Source: Sphingopyxis sp. FD7 (GTDB lineage Bacteria > Pseudomonadota > Alphaproteobacteria > Sphingomonadales > Sphingomonadaceae). Taken from it: a stretch of 64,000 nt of DNA. The notes beneath the pieces are model-generated. The model saw only the letters and a list, made by a program, of their open reading frames with translations. It did no database searches and was not told the origin of the DNA. A program made the position numbers and the translations under genes. Where the stretch lies: NCBI RefSeq assembly GCF_003609835.1, contig NZ_AP017898.1, positions 1,984,001-2,048,000 on the forward strand, given 5' to 3'. This document shows, piece by piece, positions 34,262-59,700 of the stretch. Every line of letters begins with the position of its first letter. Position 1 is the stretch's first letter.

Positions 34262-35541
34262 TAACGAAGCCCACCCACAAACTTCTCGAACAGATAGAAG
34301 CTGTCCTGCGGCCCCGGGCTCGCCTCGGGATGGTACTGCACGCTAAACGCATTCTTCCCCGTGATCGCGATGCCGCAGTTCGATCCGTCGAACAGGCTCT
34401 TGTGCGTCTCAACGACGCCCGCGGGCAAGGTCGCCGCATCAACCGCGAAGCCGTGGTTCATGCTGGTGATTTCGACCACGCCGTCGGCGAAATCGCCGCC
34501 GACGCGCTGGACCGGATGGTTCGCGCCGCGGTGCCCCTGGTGCATCTTCACGGTTTTCGCCCCCGCGGCGAGCGCGAGCAGCTGGTGGCCGAGGCAGATG
34601 CCGAAGATCGGGACGTTGCGGTCGAGCAGCCCCCGGATCACCGGCACCGCATAGTCGCCCGTCGCGGCGGGGTCGCCGGGGCCGTTCGAGAGGAACACGC
34701 CCGCGGGCTCCAGCGCCAGCACTTCGTCGAGGGTCGCGGTCGCGGGCACCACGGTGACGCGCGCGCCGGCCTTCACCAGATTGCGGAAGATATTGTCCTT
34801 CGCGCCATAATCGATCGCGACGACGTGGGGGCGATCATCTCCCTTCCCGCTTGCGGGAGGGGTCGGGGGAGGGCCTGTTTCGGTCGAGGATGGCGACATG
34901 CCCTCCCCTAGCCCCTCCCGCAAGCGGGAGGGGGACTGATAGCCCTGCCCCAGCACCCACGTTCCCGCATCCCACGCCGCCGTATCCGTACGGCTGACCT
35001 CTTTCGCAAGGTCCAGCCCCTCCAGCCCCGGCCAGCTCCGCGCCAGCGCCAGCAGCTCGTCGATGTCGAACCTGCCCTCCGCGCTGTGCGCGATCACCCC
35101 GTTCGGCGCGCCCGCATCGCGGATGCGGCGGGTGAGCGCGCGCGTGTCGATGCCCGCCAGCCCAATGACGCCCTGTTCCGCCATCCATTCGGGCAAGGTC
35201 TGGACGCTGCGAAAATTGCTGGGCTGCGTCGGCAGCTCGCGCGTGATGCACCCCAGCGCGCCATGCACGCCGCGCTCCATATCTTCGGGGTTCGCGCCGA
35301 CATTGCCGATGTGCGGAAAGGTGAAGGTGATGATCTGCCCGGCGTAGCTCGGGTCGGTCAGGATTTCCTGATAGCCCGTCATCGACGTATTGAAACAAAT
35401 CTCGCCTACTGCCGCACCCCCGGCGCCATAGCCGACGCCCCACAGGATGGTGCCGTCGGCAAGGACGAGCACGCCGGTGGCGCCGGACGGCTGGCTTCTG
35501 GGCGCGACTGATGGGTTGGCCAAAGGGCTGGCAAGTGCCAT
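34261..35541 (-). CDS. carA: Carbamoyl-phosphate synthase small subunit with a repeat-encoded insertion
   Basis: A 426-residue CarA, which releases ammonia from glutamine for CarB. The N-terminal domain has FNTSMTGYQEILTDPSYAGQ. The class I glutaminase domain has the oxyanion region VFLSNGPGDP, nucleophilic Cys in FGICLGHQLLALA and the His/Glu pair in VQYHPEASPGPQD. Between the two domains, at about residues 202-236, lies SPSRLREGLGEG through PPPTPPASGKG, a stretch coded by a two-arm palindromic element and not expected in the family. The usual length is about 390. All catalytic residues are present, so the insertion is probably tolerated. Confidence 0.96.
   Translation of the reverse strand: MALASPLANPSVAPRSQPSGATGVLVLADGTILWGVGYGAGGAAVGEICFNTSMTGYQEILTDPSYAGQIITFTFPHIGNVGANPEDMERGVHGALGCITRELPTQPSNFRSVQTLPEWMAEQGVIGLAGIDTRALTRRIRDAGAPNGVIAHSAEGRFDIDELLALARSWPGLEGLDLAKEVSRTDTAAWDAGTWVLGQGYQSPSRLREGLGEGMSPSSTETGPPPTPPASGKGDDRPHVVAIDYGAKDNIFRNLVKAGARVTVVPATATLDEVLALEPAGVFLSNGPGDPAATGDYAVPVIRGLLDRNVPIFGICLGHQLLALAAGAKTVKMHQGHRGANHPVQRVGGDFADGVVEITSMNHGFAVDAATLPAGVVETHKSLFDGSNCGIAITGKNAFSVQYHPEASPGPQDSFYLFEKFVGGLR
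34841..34934. repeat. Two-arm GC-rich palindromic element inside carA
   Basis: The left arm has the hairpin TCCCGCTTGCGGGA then GGTCGGGGGAGGGC. The right arm has GCCCTCCCCTAGCCCC then the hairpin TCCCGCAAGCGGGA. The centre is about 25 bp. The whole element is open in the carA frame. It is the same family as the elements at 58106-58201, 36134-36227 and 36590-36686 and the arms around both DUF559 genes. Confidence 0.93.
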
Positions 35542-36133: not shown

Positions 36134-36227
36134 GCCCTCCCCTAGCCCCGCCCGCAAGCGGGAGGGGAACTGGACGGTTGCGATCCCGCTTCTCCCCTCC
36201 CGCTTGCGGGAGGGGTCGGGGGTGGGC
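36134..36227. repeat. Two-arm GC-rich palindromic element upstream of DUF559
   Basis: GCCCTCCCCTAGCCCC plus a hairpin (36134-36167), then a hairpin plus GGTCGGGGGTGGGC (36194-36227), about 26 bp apart. The right arm also serves as the left arm of the DUF559 unit. The arm order is the reverse of that in carA and mfd. Confidence 0.93.
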
Positions 36228-36624
36228 ATACGCCCTATGATGGACGGACAGTTTCAGCCCCGCGACACGCAGCGTGCAAAAGAGCTGCGAAATGCCGCAG
36301 CGCCAGCAGAGCGAACCCTGTGGCGTTGCCTGTCGGGCCGGAAAGTCGGCGGCTGGAAATTCAGCCGCCAGATGCCTGTCGGTCCCTATTTCGCAGACTT
36401 TCTTTGCCGCGAAGCGCAATTGATTGTCGAACTCGACGGATGTTCGCACGATATGCGCCAAGCCTACGACGATCGTCGGGATCAATGGCTTGCAGAAAAC
36501 GGGTTTCGAGTCCTTCGTTTCACGAATGGCGACGTGATGGCGAACATCGACGGCGTCGTGAGCGAAATCGAGCGCAGCCTTGCCCTTCTGCCCACCCCTA
36601 ACCCCTCCCGCAAGCGGGAGGGGG
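36194..36624 (+). mobile_element. Candidate mobile unit: arm-DUF559 gene-arm (copy 1)
   Basis: The left arm (36194-36227) ends TCGGGGGTGGGC. The DUF559 frame starts ten bases later. The right arm (36590-36624) begins GCCCACCCCTAA and is read as the C terminus of the protein. The arms are inverted repeats of each other. The unit interrupts the usual yqeY-dnaG-rpoD order. Copy 2 at 48935-49385 has the same arrangement. Mobility is inferred. Confidence 0.6.
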
Positions 36625-36632
36625 ACATATGA
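36237..36632 (+). CDS. DUF559 (Vsr-like endonuclease fold) protein, copy 1
   Basis: A 131-residue protein of the DUF559 family, related by fold to very-short-patch-repair and restriction-like endonucleases. Family blocks: RAKELRNAAAPAERTLWRCL, the Asp in MPVGPYFADFLCREAQLIVE, ELDGCSHDMRQAYDDRRDQW and FRVLRFTNGDVMANIDGV. Asp and Glu of the ADF...ELDG region fit a metal-binding nuclease centre. The last residues (LPTPNPSRKREGDI) are coded by the palindromic arm. ATG pairs at 36237 and 36240 are both possible starts. The function of stand-alone DUF559 proteins is unknown. Confidence 0.9.
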   Translation: MMDGQFQPRDTQRAKELRNAAAPAERTLWRCLSGRKVGGWKFSRQMPVGPYFADFLCREAQLIVELDGCSHDMRQAYDDRRDQWLAENGFRVLRFTNGDVMANIDGVVSEIERSLALLPTPNPSRKREGDI

Positions 36633-36686
36633 ACTCGAACACGGATCCTTTCCCCTCCCGCTTGCGGGAGGGGCCGGGGGTGGGCA
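36590..36686. repeat. Two-arm GC-rich palindromic element between DUF559 and dnaG
   Basis: GCCCACCCCTAACC plus a hairpin (36590-36624), a centre of about 28 bp, then a hairpin plus GGCCGGGGGTGGGC (36653-36686). The element ends 10 bp before the dnaG start and contains the DUF559 stop. Confidence 0.93.
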
Positions 36687-48057: not shown

Positions 48058-48917
48058 GTATTACGCAGCGACCGGGCGTGTCGCACAGCCGCTTCCACGC
48101 GGTCCGCACGCGGCTGGAGGCGATGGCGGTCGCGCCGGGACCGCGCGGCTGGTTCCTGGAGTTTCTGGTGTTCGGGTTCAAGCAGGGCTGGGCGTGCCTG
48201 TTCGGCGGCCTGATGCTCGCGCTGCTCCTCGGCACGCATGTCTTCTGGCCCGACGATGCGCCGCTCCATCGCTACGACGCGATCACCATCGGCGCGGTGC
48301 TCATCCAGCTCGCCATGCTCGCCTTCCGGCTCGAAACGCCGAAGGAAGCGCTGGTCATCCTGCTCTTCCACATCGTCGGCACGGTGATGGAGCTGTTCAA
48401 GACCGCCGCGGGATCGTGGCAATATCCCGAAGCGAGCCTGCTCCACATCGGCGCGGTGCCGCTCTTCTCGGGTTTCATGTATGCCGCGGTCGGCAGCTAT
48501 ATCGCGCGCGTCTGGCGCATCTTCGATTTTCGCTACACGGGCTATCCGCCGGTCTGGACGAGCTATGTGCTCGCCGCCGCCATCTATATCAATTTCTTCG
48601 CGCACCATTGGACCTATGACATCCGCTGGTTGCTGTTCGCGGCGACCGGCCTGCTCTTCTGGCGCTGTCAGGTGTGGTTCCGCCCGCTCCACGTCCATCG
48701 CCGGATGCCCCTGCTCGTCGGCTGGGGGCTGGTCGCGCTGTTCATCTGGTTCGCCGAGAATATCGGCACCTTCGCCCGTGCCTGGACCTATCCCAGCCAG
48801 AATGACGGCTGGCATATGGTCGGGCTGGAAAAGCTCGGCAGCTGGTATCTGCTGATGATCATCTCGTTCGTGCTGGTCAGTTTGGTGCAGCGGCCGAAGG
48901 AGCCAGGTCACTTGTAG
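48054..48917 (+). CDS. DUF817 membrane protein
   Basis: A 287-residue protein with about eight hydrophobic segments, matching the DUF817 family. Landmarks are LEFLVFGFKQGWACLFGGLM, HIVGTVMELFKTAAGSWQYP, GFMYAAVGSYIARVWRIFDF and the end ENIGTFARAWTYPSQNDGWH. Function unknown. It starts at GTG 48054, overlapping the preceding stop (GTGA), so it is coupled to the amidohydrolase gene. Its 3' end overlaps the convergent DUF559 gene by 10 bp. Confidence 0.9.
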   Translation: MSITQRPGVSHSRFHAVRTRLEAMAVAPGPRGWFLEFLVFGFKQGWACLFGGLMLALLLGTHVFWPDDAPLHRYDAITIGAVLIQLAMLAFRLETPKEALVILLFHIVGTVMELFKTAAGSWQYPEASLLHIGAVPLFSGFMYAAVGSYIARVWRIFDFRYTGYPPVWTSYVLAAAIYINFFAHHWTYDIRWLLFAATGLLFWRCQVWFRPLHVHRRMPLLVGWGLVALFIWFAENIGTFARAWTYPSQNDGWHMVGLEKLGSWYLLMIISFVLVSLVQRPKEPGHL

Positions 48918-49315
48918 CGCGGCCGCCTCACTCTCCCCTCCCTGAAAGGGAGGGGTTGGGGGTGGGTACCGCCGAGGCACTCGGCGGCTTCTTGGAGGAT
49001 CAGCCGGGCGACGCCTTCTGGATTAGAGAGTGCGTCGTTGTTCCAAATCCGCATGACTCGCCAGCCTTCGGACTCGAGAAACTTCGTCCGGCGATCGTCA
49101 TAGTTTTGCTGCTCAAGATGCTGGCTGCCGTCGAATTCGATCGCCAACTTTGCTTTGCGGCATGCGAGATCGACTATGTACGAACCCACCACGAGCTGCC
49201 GAGTGAACGATGGCCGATAATTGGAAAGCAGCTGCCACATGGCCCGCTCAGCAGGCGTTGCCTCGTTACGCAACCGGCGCGCACGATCAGTCATTTCTTT
49301 CGGCACGCGACGCAT
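48908..49315 (-). CDS. DUF559 (Vsr-like endonuclease fold) protein, copy 2
   Basis: A 135-residue DUF559 protein. Shared blocks with copy 1: RARRLRNEATPAERAMWQLL, RQLVVGSYIVDLACRKAKLA, IEFDGSQHLEQQNYDDRRTK and GWRVMRIWNNDALSNPEGV. The Asp in YIVDLAC and Glu/Asp in AIEFDGSQH are the expected metal ligands. The C-terminal end (GGTHPQPLPFREGRV) is coded by the palindromic arm, as in copy 1. The copies have clearly diverged in sequence, so neither is a recent duplicate of the other. Confidence 0.9.
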   Translation of the reverse strand: MRRVPKEMTDRARRLRNEATPAERAMWQLLSNYRPSFTRQLVVGSYIVDLACRKAKLAIEFDGSQHLEQQNYDDRRTKFLESEGWRVMRIWNNDALSNPEGVARLILQEAAECLGGTHPQPLPFREGRVRRPRYK

Positions 49316-49385
49316 GATCGATAGGTAGCGCGGCGAGCTTCGCTCGCCAACCCACCCCTAACCCCTCCCTGAAGAAGGGAGGGGG
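48935..49385 (-). mobile_element. Candidate mobile unit: arm-DUF559 gene-arm (copy 2)
   Basis: The left arm (48935-48967) is the hairpin CCCTCCCTGAAAGGGAGGG with a GTTGGGGGTGGGT tail. The right arm (49350-49385) is ACCCACCCCTAACC and the hairpin CTCCCTGAAGAAGGGAG. They are inverted copies facing inward with the gene between. Here there are no extra outer arms. The gene lies in the same orientation relative to the arms as in copy 1. Confidence 0.6.
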
Positions 49386-56798: not shown

Positions 56799-59700
56799 CC
56801 CGAAGTGCTGCCGATATATCTGCCGCGATCGCATCGGCCGCGGCGCCGCTGACGCTCGCGCGCGCCGCCGACGGCTTCCTGCCGCTGCTGCTCGCCGACC
56901 TCGCGCGCGCGAGCGACAGGCGCCTCGTCTATATCGCGACCGACGATGCCGCGATGCAGGCGATCGCCGACGCCGCGCCCTTTTTCGCCCCCGACCTCAC
57001 CGTCCACCGCTTTCCCGCGTGGGACTGCCTCCCTTATGATCGCGCCGGGCCGTCGATGCGCGTCAGCGCCGACCGGTTGGCGACACTCTCCGCCTTGCAG
57101 GCGGCACCGAAGCGCGGCGAGCTGATCCTGACCACCGTTGCCGCGATCACCCAGCGCACGCTCACCCCCTTCCGCATCCGGCAGCTCGCGACGACCTTGG
57201 CGCCCGGCCAGCGGATCGACCGCGATGCGCTCGCCGAGCTGCTCGTCGCCAACGGCTTCAGCCGCGTCGATACGGTCGCCGATCAGGGCGAATTCGCGGT
57301 GCGTGGCGGCCTGCTCGACCTGTTTCCGGCGGGCGATGAGACGGGGCTGCGCGTCGATTTCTTCGGCGACGAGATCGAAAGCATCCGCCGCTTCGACCCC
57401 GCCGACCAGCGCAGCCTGGGGCCCGCCAAGGCACTGCAACTGCTCCCCGCGTCCGAAACCCTGCTCGACGACGCGACGATCAAGCGCTTCCGCTCGGCCT
57501 ATCGCGAATTGTTCGGCGCGCAGGCGACCGGCGATCCGCTCTATCAGGCGGTCAGCGACGGGCGGCGGCAGGCGGGCATGGATCACTGGCTGCCGCTGTT
57601 CGAGGAGCGGCTGGCAACGCTGTTCGACCATGTCGACCCGGCGACGCCGGTGCTGCGCGGCCACCGCACCGATCAGGCCGCCGAGACGCGCTTCGCCGCG
57701 ATCGCCGACTATCATGCCAACCGCGTCGCCGCCGAACGCGAATCGCCGGGCAGCTACCGCCCGCTCGCGCCCGAGGCGCTCTATCTGACCGAGGGCGAAT
57801 GGACCGAAGCAGCGGCGAGGCGCCCGATCCATGTCGTCACGCCCTTCGATGTCCCGCCCGCCGCATCGGTCGTCGATCTCGAAACCTTTGCCGCGCGCGA
57901 TTTCACCCCCGAACGCACCGCCGACCTCAACGTCTATCACAAGGTCGCCGACCATCTGTCGGACGAGCGCCGCAAGGGACGTCGGACGATCATCGCCAGC
58001 TATTCGGCCGGCGCGCGCGATCGCCTGTCCGGGCTGCTTCGCGAGCATGGCGTGACCTCGCTGGTTCAGGTCGAGACGTGGCAGGAAGCGCTGGGCCTTT
58101 CTTCCCCCCTCCCGCTTGCGGGAGGGGTCGGGGGTGGGCCGACTTCTGCACCGACGTCTGAGAATTCGCCCACCCCTAACCCCTCCCGCAAGCGGGAGGG
58201 GAATCAGGTCGCCCTCATCGTCCTCCCCCTCGATCATGGCTTCGCCAGCGACGCGATCAGCCTGCTCACCGAGCAGGACATTCTCGGCGAACGCCTCGTC
58301 CGGCGGCAGAAGCGCCGCAAGAGCGCCGACGCCTTCCTTGCCGAACTCGCGACGCTCAGCGTCGGCGATCTGGTCGTCCATCTCGACCATGGCATCGGCC
58401 GCTATGAGGGACTGACGTCGATCCCGGTCGGGAGCAGCCCGCACGATTGCGTCGCGCTGACCTATGCGGGCGGCGACAAGCTCTACGTCCCCGTCGAAAA
58501 TCTCGACGTCCTCTCCCGCTATGGCGGCGAGAGCGACGGGGTCGCGCTCGACAAATTGGGCGGCGAGGCATGGCAGCGGCGCAAGGCGCGGATGAAGGAG
58601 CGTATCCGCGAGATTGCGGGCGAGTTGCTCGCCACCGCGGCGCAGCGCGCGCTCCGTCCCGGCGAGATACTCGCGCAGGACGCCGCCTATCCCGCCTTCG
58701 CCGACCGCTTCCCCTATCAGGAAACCGACGATCAGGACCGCGCGATCGGCGAGGTGCTCGCCGACATGGCGTCGGGGCGCCCGATGGACCGGCTGGTGTG
58801 CGGCGATGTCGGCTTCGGCAAGACCGAGGTGGCGCTGCGCGCCGCCTTCGTCGCGGCGATGGCGGGGGTGCAGGTTGCGGTGGTGGTGCCGACCACCCTG
58901 CTCGCGCGCCAGCATTTCACGAACTTCGTCGAGCGCTTCAAGGGCTTTCCGGTCAATATCGGCCGCCTGTCGCGCCTCGTTCCCGCCGCCGAGGCGCAAC
59001 GCACCCGCGACGGCCTCGCCAGCGGACAGATCGACATCGTCGTCGGCACCCACGCGGTGATCGCCAAATCGGTCGTGTTCAGGAATCTCGGCCTCGTCAT
59101 CGTCGATGAGGAACAGCGGTTCGGCGTCGTCCACAAGGAGCGGCTCAAACAGCTGAAAGCCGACGTCCATGTGCTGACGCTCACCGCGACGCCGATCCCG
59201 CGCACGCTCCAGATGGCGATGTCGGGGCTGCGCGAGCTCAGCGTCATCCAGACGCCGCCGGTCGACCGGCTCGCGGTGCGCACCTATGTCGCGCCGTGGG
59301 ATCCGGTGGTGATCCGCGAGGCGCTGCTGCGCGAGCATGACCGCGGCGGGCAGAGCTTCTTCGTCACCCCGCGGATCAAGGATCTGCCCGACATCGAGGA
59401 ATATCTGCGCACCCGCGTGCCCGAGATCAAATATGTCGTCGCGCACGGCCAGATGGCGCCAGGCGAGGTCGAGGAACGGATGGGCGCCTTTTACGACCGC
59501 AAATATGACGTGCTCGTTTCGACCACGATCGTCGAATCCGGCCTCGACATCCCCAGCGCCAACACGCTGATCGTCCACCGCGCCGACCGCTTCGGCCTCG
59601 CGCAACTCTACCAGCTGCGCGGCCGCGTCGGACGGTCGAAGACGCGCGCCTATGCCTATCTGACCACACCCGAGGGCGGCGGCATCACCGACACGGCGGA

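Follow-up and report, generated by a model that had tools for sequence, protein, structure and literature searches.

To our knowledge, the repeats described as BoxC, PIT or intrastrand triplex motifs have been on record in Escherichia coli since the 1990s with no known enzyme, and we know of no role assigned to the DUF559 protein family, which includes E. coli YcjD and Neisseria gonorrhoeae 3hrl. The RAYT-REPIN system combines a vertically kept single gene between repeats with gene-less inverted pairs of constant size. In the triplex motif, the purine tail is described as the third strand of the triplex (Holder 2015, PMC4666352, as far as its available text goes). According to the same paper, the single-stranded E. 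coli motif formed the triplex in vitro, and no sign of a triplex came from its duplex or from in vivo footprinting; the surroundings of the E. coli motifs yielded neither a transposase nor an integrase, and earlier work had found PIT/BoxC elements to be without promoter or terminator activity. CGTC-tagged REPs are said to lack a transposase in the available part of Di Nocera 2013 (PMC3733652).

In the window (the whole 64,000-nt stretch of the Sphingopyxis sp. FD7 genome that was analyzed), positions 36194-36623 hold two inward-facing inverted arms that enclose a DUF559 gene, just as an earlier sequence-only reading had described. The left arm (36194-36227, plus strand) is a triplex motif of the BoxC/PIT type that reads CCCCTCCCGC TT GCGGGAGGGG, TCG, GGGGTGGGC, with TCG as its second loop; the right arm (36590-36623, minus strand) is the inverted motif with TTA as its second loop, and the two are 94% complementary across 35 nt. 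Each of the two arms is a hairpin of a 5' pyrimidine stem and a 3' purine stem, with a loop of three bases and a tail of nine purine-rich bases; this tail, the third strand, points toward the gene and matches at 9/9 positions in both arms. The gene (36237-36632, plus strand) has its first ATG at 36237, the tenth base past the left arm, in a reading frame already open from a TTG at 36204 within that arm, and about 11 of its C-terminal codons (..PTPNPSRKRE..) are supplied by the right arm; the earlier reading had both the start and the borrowed C terminus right. Two further arms lie outside these with their tails pointing away from the gene: an imperfect one with a CCCCGCCC stem (36134-36167, minus strand) and a perfect triplex motif (36652-36685, plus strand). 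Eight triplex motifs occur in the window, compared to none in three base-shuffled windows, and the hairpin pattern with up to three mismatches has 9 matches against 0.01 expected from dinucleotide shuffles. Across the whole genome the exact hairpin pattern is found at 58 places and the reversed pattern at none.

The unit was also said to break the usual yqeY-dnaG order. At this site, the 36 genus genomes compared, FD7 included, comprise 20 with a DUF559 unit, 11 with a unit of similar size but other arms, and 5 with only a 60-nt gap; hence the unit does interrupt the gene order.

Judged by motif comparison, the arms fit the known BoxC/PIT/intrastrand triplex motif and are not a new repeat. Both have a polypyrimidine stem, a polypurine stem, a third purine strand, a short second loop and an arrangement in inverted pairs. 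Doublets in the genomes studied here measure 94 to 109 nt, versus 85 to 100 nt for the four convergent BoxC pairs of E. coli as read from the coordinates in Table 1 of PMC4666352, the fifth pair of that table being divergent. Stem sequences differ, many Sphingopyxis stems being GCGGGAGGGG and the BoxC/PIT motif having GGGAGAGGG, and the accessible text of PMC4666352 names no enzyme, whereas DUF559 is a regular partner here. Read in reverse, the purine stem gives a prediction of the tail in which G lies over G and either A or T lies over A. Covariation between stem and third strand is seen across 38 distinct stems (own score, 5.99; permuted mean, 5.44; own score reached by 0/1000 permutations), and among hairpins facing the gene the third strand matches at 8 or 9 of 9 positions in 172/318, compared to 367/6360 for shuffled tails. 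The reversed triplex pattern has a single match in 299 genomes. A fixed pairing of an A-type with a B-type arm was considered and is not general, since A plus B accounts for 25 and B plus B for 32 of the 59 scored DUF559 pairs, typed by a crude rule on the last base of the second loop. At six loci (L016, L025, L040, L047, L093, and L176) a variable extra hairpin replaces the second loop before the last purine strand.

The window protein is a clear DUF559 member (PF04480, 126.6 bits against a cutoff of 20.6, E value 4.9e-37) and is not Y1_Tnp by Pfam. Its predicted model (mean pLDDT, 84.8; pTM, 0.78) best resembles 3hrl from N. gonorrhoeae (Z 15.4), the homing endonuclease I-Bth0305I (3r3p; Z 11.5) and Vsr (1cw0; Z 9.4), and a sequence profile search also matches 3hrl and 3r3p. 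The model agrees with the Vsr-type fold named in the earlier reading, and DUF559 is predicted to belong to the Vsr/EDxHD branch of PD-(D/E)XK nucleases, of which we take I-Bth0305I to be an EDxHD member. Across 16 diverse members, 13 alignment columns do not vary, among them D55, E66, D68, H72, and R95 (alignment A1 numbering); the D, E, D-G, H, and R positions are invariant in both alignments (16 and 29 sequences), as is the motif E-x-D-G-x-x-H, and these residues are presumably catalytic. While the predicted fold is common to I-Bth0305I, Vsr and 3hrl, DUF559 here differs from EDxHD/Vsr nucleases in sitting between repeat arms at an intergenic site. Caulobacter VsrA is a DUF559 protein required for an SOS response in a methylase mutant, and a mismatch-repair role tied to a cytosine methylase has been proposed for it, according to the available text of PMC12907096. 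A role in defense was considered and discarded, the best PADLOC match (E value 0.012) being not significant. Phage copies of DUF559 are few (6 records).

How widely does DUF559 go with such arms? Flanks were scored by comparing the 350 nt on one side of a gene with the 350 nt on the other for similarity in inverted orientation, at loci with at least 150 nt of flank, and a locus was called armed at a score of at least 20; control open reading frames (ORFs) were computed reading frames from the same stretches. In relatives, where the search for arm-flanked DUF559 genes among sphingomonads had been suggested, 44/69 DUF559 loci are armed, compared to 1/99 control ORFs (Fisher, ~1e-21). Phylum-wide, with one locus per genome, the figures are 35/70 and 1/111 (Fisher, ~1e-16), the phylum and order loci being best matches and not a random draw. 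Named loci reaching other phyla are armed in 52/73 cases against 0/73 control ORFs, a set that is not fully independent because four of its loci (L267, L277, L281, and L336) correspond to contigs present in the earlier counts as L006, L035, L012, and L009. L022, which is the same as L045, is left out of the 44/69 count and of the protein-arm, gene-proximal-end/GC, covariation and motif-facing counts, and L326, which contains an N run, is left out of the last three; with L326 included, the named set stands at 53/74. Armed named loci come from records titled Rickettsiales, Legionellales, Syntrophales, Nitrospira, Gastranaerophilales, and Dehalococcoidia and from two rumen bacteria. DUF559 orthologues therefore do not generally lack arms, nor is the same gene conserved at its locus with arms absent, the two outcomes that would have spoken against the unit. 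Unarmed or weakly armed loci make up 25/69 of the relatives, 35/70 of the phylum set and 21/73 of the named set, and the DUF559 locus of Legionella shakespearei is unarmed; the pairing of DUF559 with arms is general, not universal. A composition artifact is ruled out by the control ORFs together with the GC-rich arms of AT-rich hosts: 11/17 loci below 52% GC are armed, and in each of them the arm GC exceeds the locus GC.

Three loci deserve separate mention. L045 has DUF559 genes at G001:C1:496426 and 499130, about 2.7 kb apart, the second of which scores 12. L082 has a DUF559 gene with near-identical inverted flanks of about 100 nt, longer than a single arm. L348, from N. gonorrhoeae, has a DUF559 gene close to 3hrl amid imperfect triplex-like repeats, with a weak pair score of 13.

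The two arms of a locus belong together and share a polarity that can be read directly. When left and right flanks were swapped between loci, a score of at least 20 was reached in 51/554 pairings, compared to 45/70 real ones (one locus counted twice). A triplex motif matching at 8 or 9 of 9 positions faces the gene on both sides at 28/69, 15/70, and 18/74 DUF559 loci of the relative, phylum and named sets, versus 0/340 control ORFs and 0/59 GIY-YIG loci, and on at least one side at 39/69, 38/70, and 37/74 DUF559 loci, versus 7/340 control ORFs. Motifs facing away from DUF559 occur on both sides at 11/213 loci and on at least one side at 45/213. At its end nearest the gene, the left arm is rich in purines in 106 of 144 armed units, mixed in 37 and rich in pyrimidines in 1.

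Protein and arm also diverge and occur together, as measured by three tests that ignore phylogeny and that vertical descent inflates: protein identity correlates with arm similarity across 90 armed units (Mantel r, 0.49; reached by 0/2000 permutations); the triplex pattern is present in 47/86 genomes with a strong DUF559 match (E value below 1e-10) and in 13/213 without (odds ratio, 18.5; P = 1.4e-19; 299 genomes surveyed); and arm counts are higher where DUF559 sits at yqeY-dnaG (one-sided P = 0.0013; 20 versus 19 genomes). Pairs from different loci at 60 to 80% protein identity have an arm similarity of at least 0.69 in 12 of 16 cases, and pairs at 40 to 50% identity have a mean of 0.46. These comparisons indicate that the arm subtype tracks the DUF559 protein, with shared descent as a contributor. 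Exceptions occur in both directions, with 39 of the 86 strong-DUF559 genomes having no exact triplex pattern and 13 of the 60 triplex-pattern genomes having no strong DUF559. Six of these 13 hold at least 10 copies of the motif (G072, G089, G094, G213, G255, and G286); loss of DUF559, a distant homologue, or another enzyme are candidate readings for them.

The pairing reaches the organism in which the repeat was described. YcjD of E. coli belongs to DUF559, its segment is present in 3365/5426 E. coli genomes, and in K-12 ycjD lies between sapF and fabI. BoxC motif 9 in Table 1 of PMC4666352 (1,351,204-1,351,239), going by the part of that paper available, falls between ycjD and fabI, and arms are found only on the downstream side of ycjD. 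Upstream of it, L346 and L351 have an inverted repeat, CATTCTGACAA..TTGTCAGAATG, with no triplex arm. Of four further E. coli records, three are without ycjD and lack the arm-like motif, which is present in the fourth, whose DUF559 is incomplete; the three hold another operon at the site and not a clean empty site (PMC12817139, from its accessible text). The open literature searched contained no paper that brings DUF559 together with ycjD, boxC or envM.

The FD7 genome has four DUF559 genes, all four with inverted arm-like flanks of differing subtypes; their flank scores are 46, 37, 15, and 18, so that two of the four fall below the threshold of 20. The second copy in the window (48935-49384) shows the like design that had been claimed for it, but with a different arm subtype. 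Its ORF (48908-49315, minus strand) runs its C terminus through an arm found by the triplex-motif scan (48935-48967, plus strand; CCCCTCCC-TGAA-GGGAGGGG TTG GGGGTGGGT), and the arm on the other side (49350-49384, minus strand) directs its third strand toward the gene. Gene-less arm pairs, or doublets, are also present, one inside carA and in frame with it (34841-34933; the left hairpin has one mismatch) and one at 58106-58201 with second loops TCG and TTA and tails inward. Arm pairs at five other places of the same genome (L107, L111, L113, L114, and L120) have a second inner hairpin (CTGCGACTA..TAGTCTCGCTG), and the longer outer flanks that they have in common (GGACATTGAG.GGTTGCGCTGG..) make them look like pieces of larger dispersed repeats.

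Which part of this system moves, the gene or the arms? Among the 90 armed units, there are 52 pairs of DUF559 proteins with at least 80% identity, and in every one of them both members sit at the same locus. The gene thus shows no sign of a recent hop, and the expectation that the gene unit is a recent mover was not borne out. It is the gene-less arm pair that spreads: pairs of about 97 nt (94 to 109) are scattered through the genomes, many inverted pairs of near-constant size being a REPIN-like feature. A 63-nt start-to-start spacing recurs among the places listed for G015, G360, and G364. Doublets near the sister-species DUF559 type have unit-like ends, TCGGGGG.. on one side and TTAGGGG or CTAGGGG on the other, and the ends of the carA doublet are the left and right end sequences of sister-species DUF559 units. 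With genes at fixed loci and doublets scattered, the gene looks like a fixed master and the doublets like the spreading part.

Species differ directly in which doublets and units they have. The carA alignment covers 26 genomes, FD7 included, with 11 partial-match loci and L018 set aside: the insert is missing from 17, is a DUF559-type pair in 8 and is a pair of the GIY-YIG-associated family in 1. Depending on the relative, a single place in the linker is thus occupied by one or the other family of repeats or by none; empty and filled sites differ by an 8- to 30-nt linker. At yqeY-dnaG, each of the five empty gaps contains a hairpin, and in three of them an arm-like tail, GTGGGC, comes after it. 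The comparison of filled and empty sites that had been proposed for yqeY-dnaG thus yielded empty alleles (5/36) but not a base-exact junction; with one genome per species and diverged junctions, neither a base-exact empty site nor a readable target duplication was obtained at carA or yqeY-dnaG.

The site used by DUF559 in some species is filled in others by a gene of the GIY-YIG family. At yqeY-dnaG, 7 of the 11 alternative units have a full reading frame starting MAFWTY, PF01541 matches are found among others in G017, G018, G010, G012, and G223, and the GIY-YIG gene of G004 is broken by a stop. In the order set, with one locus per genome, 20/30 GIY-YIG loci are armed at a score of 20 and 23/30 at 18. 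GIY-YIG is a broad superfamily and cannot be called generally armed: with 7/30 loci armed phylum-wide, the armed state holds for part of it. A loose CGTC-type tag is present in 11/23 armed loci of the order set and 4/7 of the phylum set, the remainder having other palindromes, and example GIY-YIG REPs show an 8- to 9-bp stem, a 4- to 5-nt loop and a CCA tail. Across L194 to L223, L127, L128, L137 to L139, L146, and L153, GIY-YIG often lies between inverted CGTC-type REPs or CGAGCGAAGTCGAG palindromes; L194 scores 19 and is left out of the GIY motif-facing tally. Like the arms described here, the CGTC-tagged REPs of PMC3733652 form inverted pairs, as far as its available text shows, but their sequence is unrelated to that of DUF559 arms. 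DUF559 arms are not CGTC REPs, since 78/91 armed DUF559 loci have polypyrimidine-polypurine arms, compared to 0/29 armed GIY-YIG loci, and the loose CGTC pattern occurs at 7/91. Counted by a pattern that does not pick up the ACACC subtype, GIY arms showed no significant difference in number between genomes with a GIY-YIG unit and those with a DUF559 unit at yqeY-dnaG (P = 0.12), and three of the five empty-site genomes had many GIY arms. A link between GIY-YIG and repetitive extragenic palindromic repeats was not found in the open literature.

The sequence-only reading had proposed a nuclease-driven counterpart of RAYT-REP. The two systems resemble each other in a kept gene together with a gene-less population of inverted pairs, and they differ in the enzyme, a predicted Vsr/EDxHD fold for DUF559 versus an HUH Y1 transposase for RAYT, and in the repeats, triplex motifs versus GTAG REPs; the DUF559 unit has no Y1/HUH transposase between its repeats. 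Because arming extends over many genera and phyla, the arm appears to track the protein, and RAYT-type Y1 transposases are found in 9/41 relatives, the nuclease counterpart is now a good hypothesis, although the hops of the gene that belonged to the original proposal were not seen.

We consider it rather probable that the BoxC/intrastrand-triplex repeat family has in DUF559 a stand-alone nuclease dedicated to it, with subtype-specific action and doublets copied by repair. Each arm subtype appears to have its own DUF559, and the gene would be the master copy between two such arms. The protein would recognize an arm of its own subtype, most likely single-stranded and folded into hairpin and third strand during replication; since the available text of PMC4666352 has the single strand folding and the duplex not, the lagging strand at the fork is a likely substrate. 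DUF559 would then nick or cut at the folded arm, and the break would be repaired from another arm pair, so that a short copy of such a pair ends up at the cut. Doublets of about 97 nt would thereby spread and the gene would stay, as in RAYTs and REPINs with an unrelated enzyme. We infer arm recognition, cleavage and copying by DUF559; nick-and-repair copying would account for doublets of nearly uniform size, for subtypes that match and for a gene that stays fixed.

It is unlikely, in our estimation, that DUF559 is instead a Vsr-like host mismatch-repair enzyme, around which triplex repeats simply gather or serve as regulatory or mRNA-protecting hairpins. The Vsr-like fold of the model, the presence of close DUF559 relatives at fixed loci and the mismatch-repair role with a cytosine methylase proposed for Caulobacter VsrA (in the available text of PMC12907096) fit such an enzyme. 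It would leave aside that the arms are matched, gene-facing pairs (51/554 for swapped versus 45/70 for real flanks), that their subtype appears to track the protein, and that distant AT-rich hosts keep the same arm type, and a regulatory use sits poorly with PIT/BoxC elements lacking promoter or terminator activity (PMC4666352, available text).

A homing-type element, in which the nuclease would cut at a site with one arm or none and gene conversion from an element-bearing homologue would copy in the entire unit, strikes us as quite improbable, even with a homing endonuclease, I-Bth0305I, among the closest solved relatives, with GIY-YIG, another homing family, filling the same yqeY-dnaG site, and with empty sites that retain a hairpin. 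On its own it leaves unexplained the dozens of gene-less doublets at unrelated loci, and filled and empty junctions at carA and yqeY-dnaG are not base-exact.

That a RAYT or another transposase moves the arms, with DUF559 as a passenger between two of them, would accommodate the many arm pairs without DUF559 and the 13/60 triplex-pattern genomes without a strong match but is very doubtful, since Y1 transposases occur in 9/41 relatives and 3/25 genus genomes and many of the others hold arms in number, triplex arms flank 0/8 scorable RAYT loci (13 loci, five cut by contig ends and unscored; some carry their own short inverted flanks), and a gene family paired with the same arm family across many orders and several phyla is hardly a passenger.

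In favor of the dedicated nuclease, the pairing recurs in many other bacteria, and DUF559 may thus be the partner so far missing for the spread or upkeep of the triplex repeat. What is new is the partnership, the BoxC/PIT repeat itself being already known; in the open papers covered by the search, no link between DUF559 and REP or palindromic repeats was found. More tentatively, and with slightly less than even confidence, we suggest that two unrelated nucleases drive their own folded repeats, DUF559 the triplex/BoxC motif and a GIY-YIG branch the CGTC REPs, as a general nuclease-spread class that cuts folded single strands and copies arm pairs by repair. If true, dedicated nucleases would explain the spread of both BoxC/triplex repeats and CGTC REPs, the DUF559 family, including YcjD and 3hrl, would gain a function, and REPIN-like repeat populations would be reachable without transposase chemistry. 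Both repeat-enzyme questions would become testable in laboratory strains.
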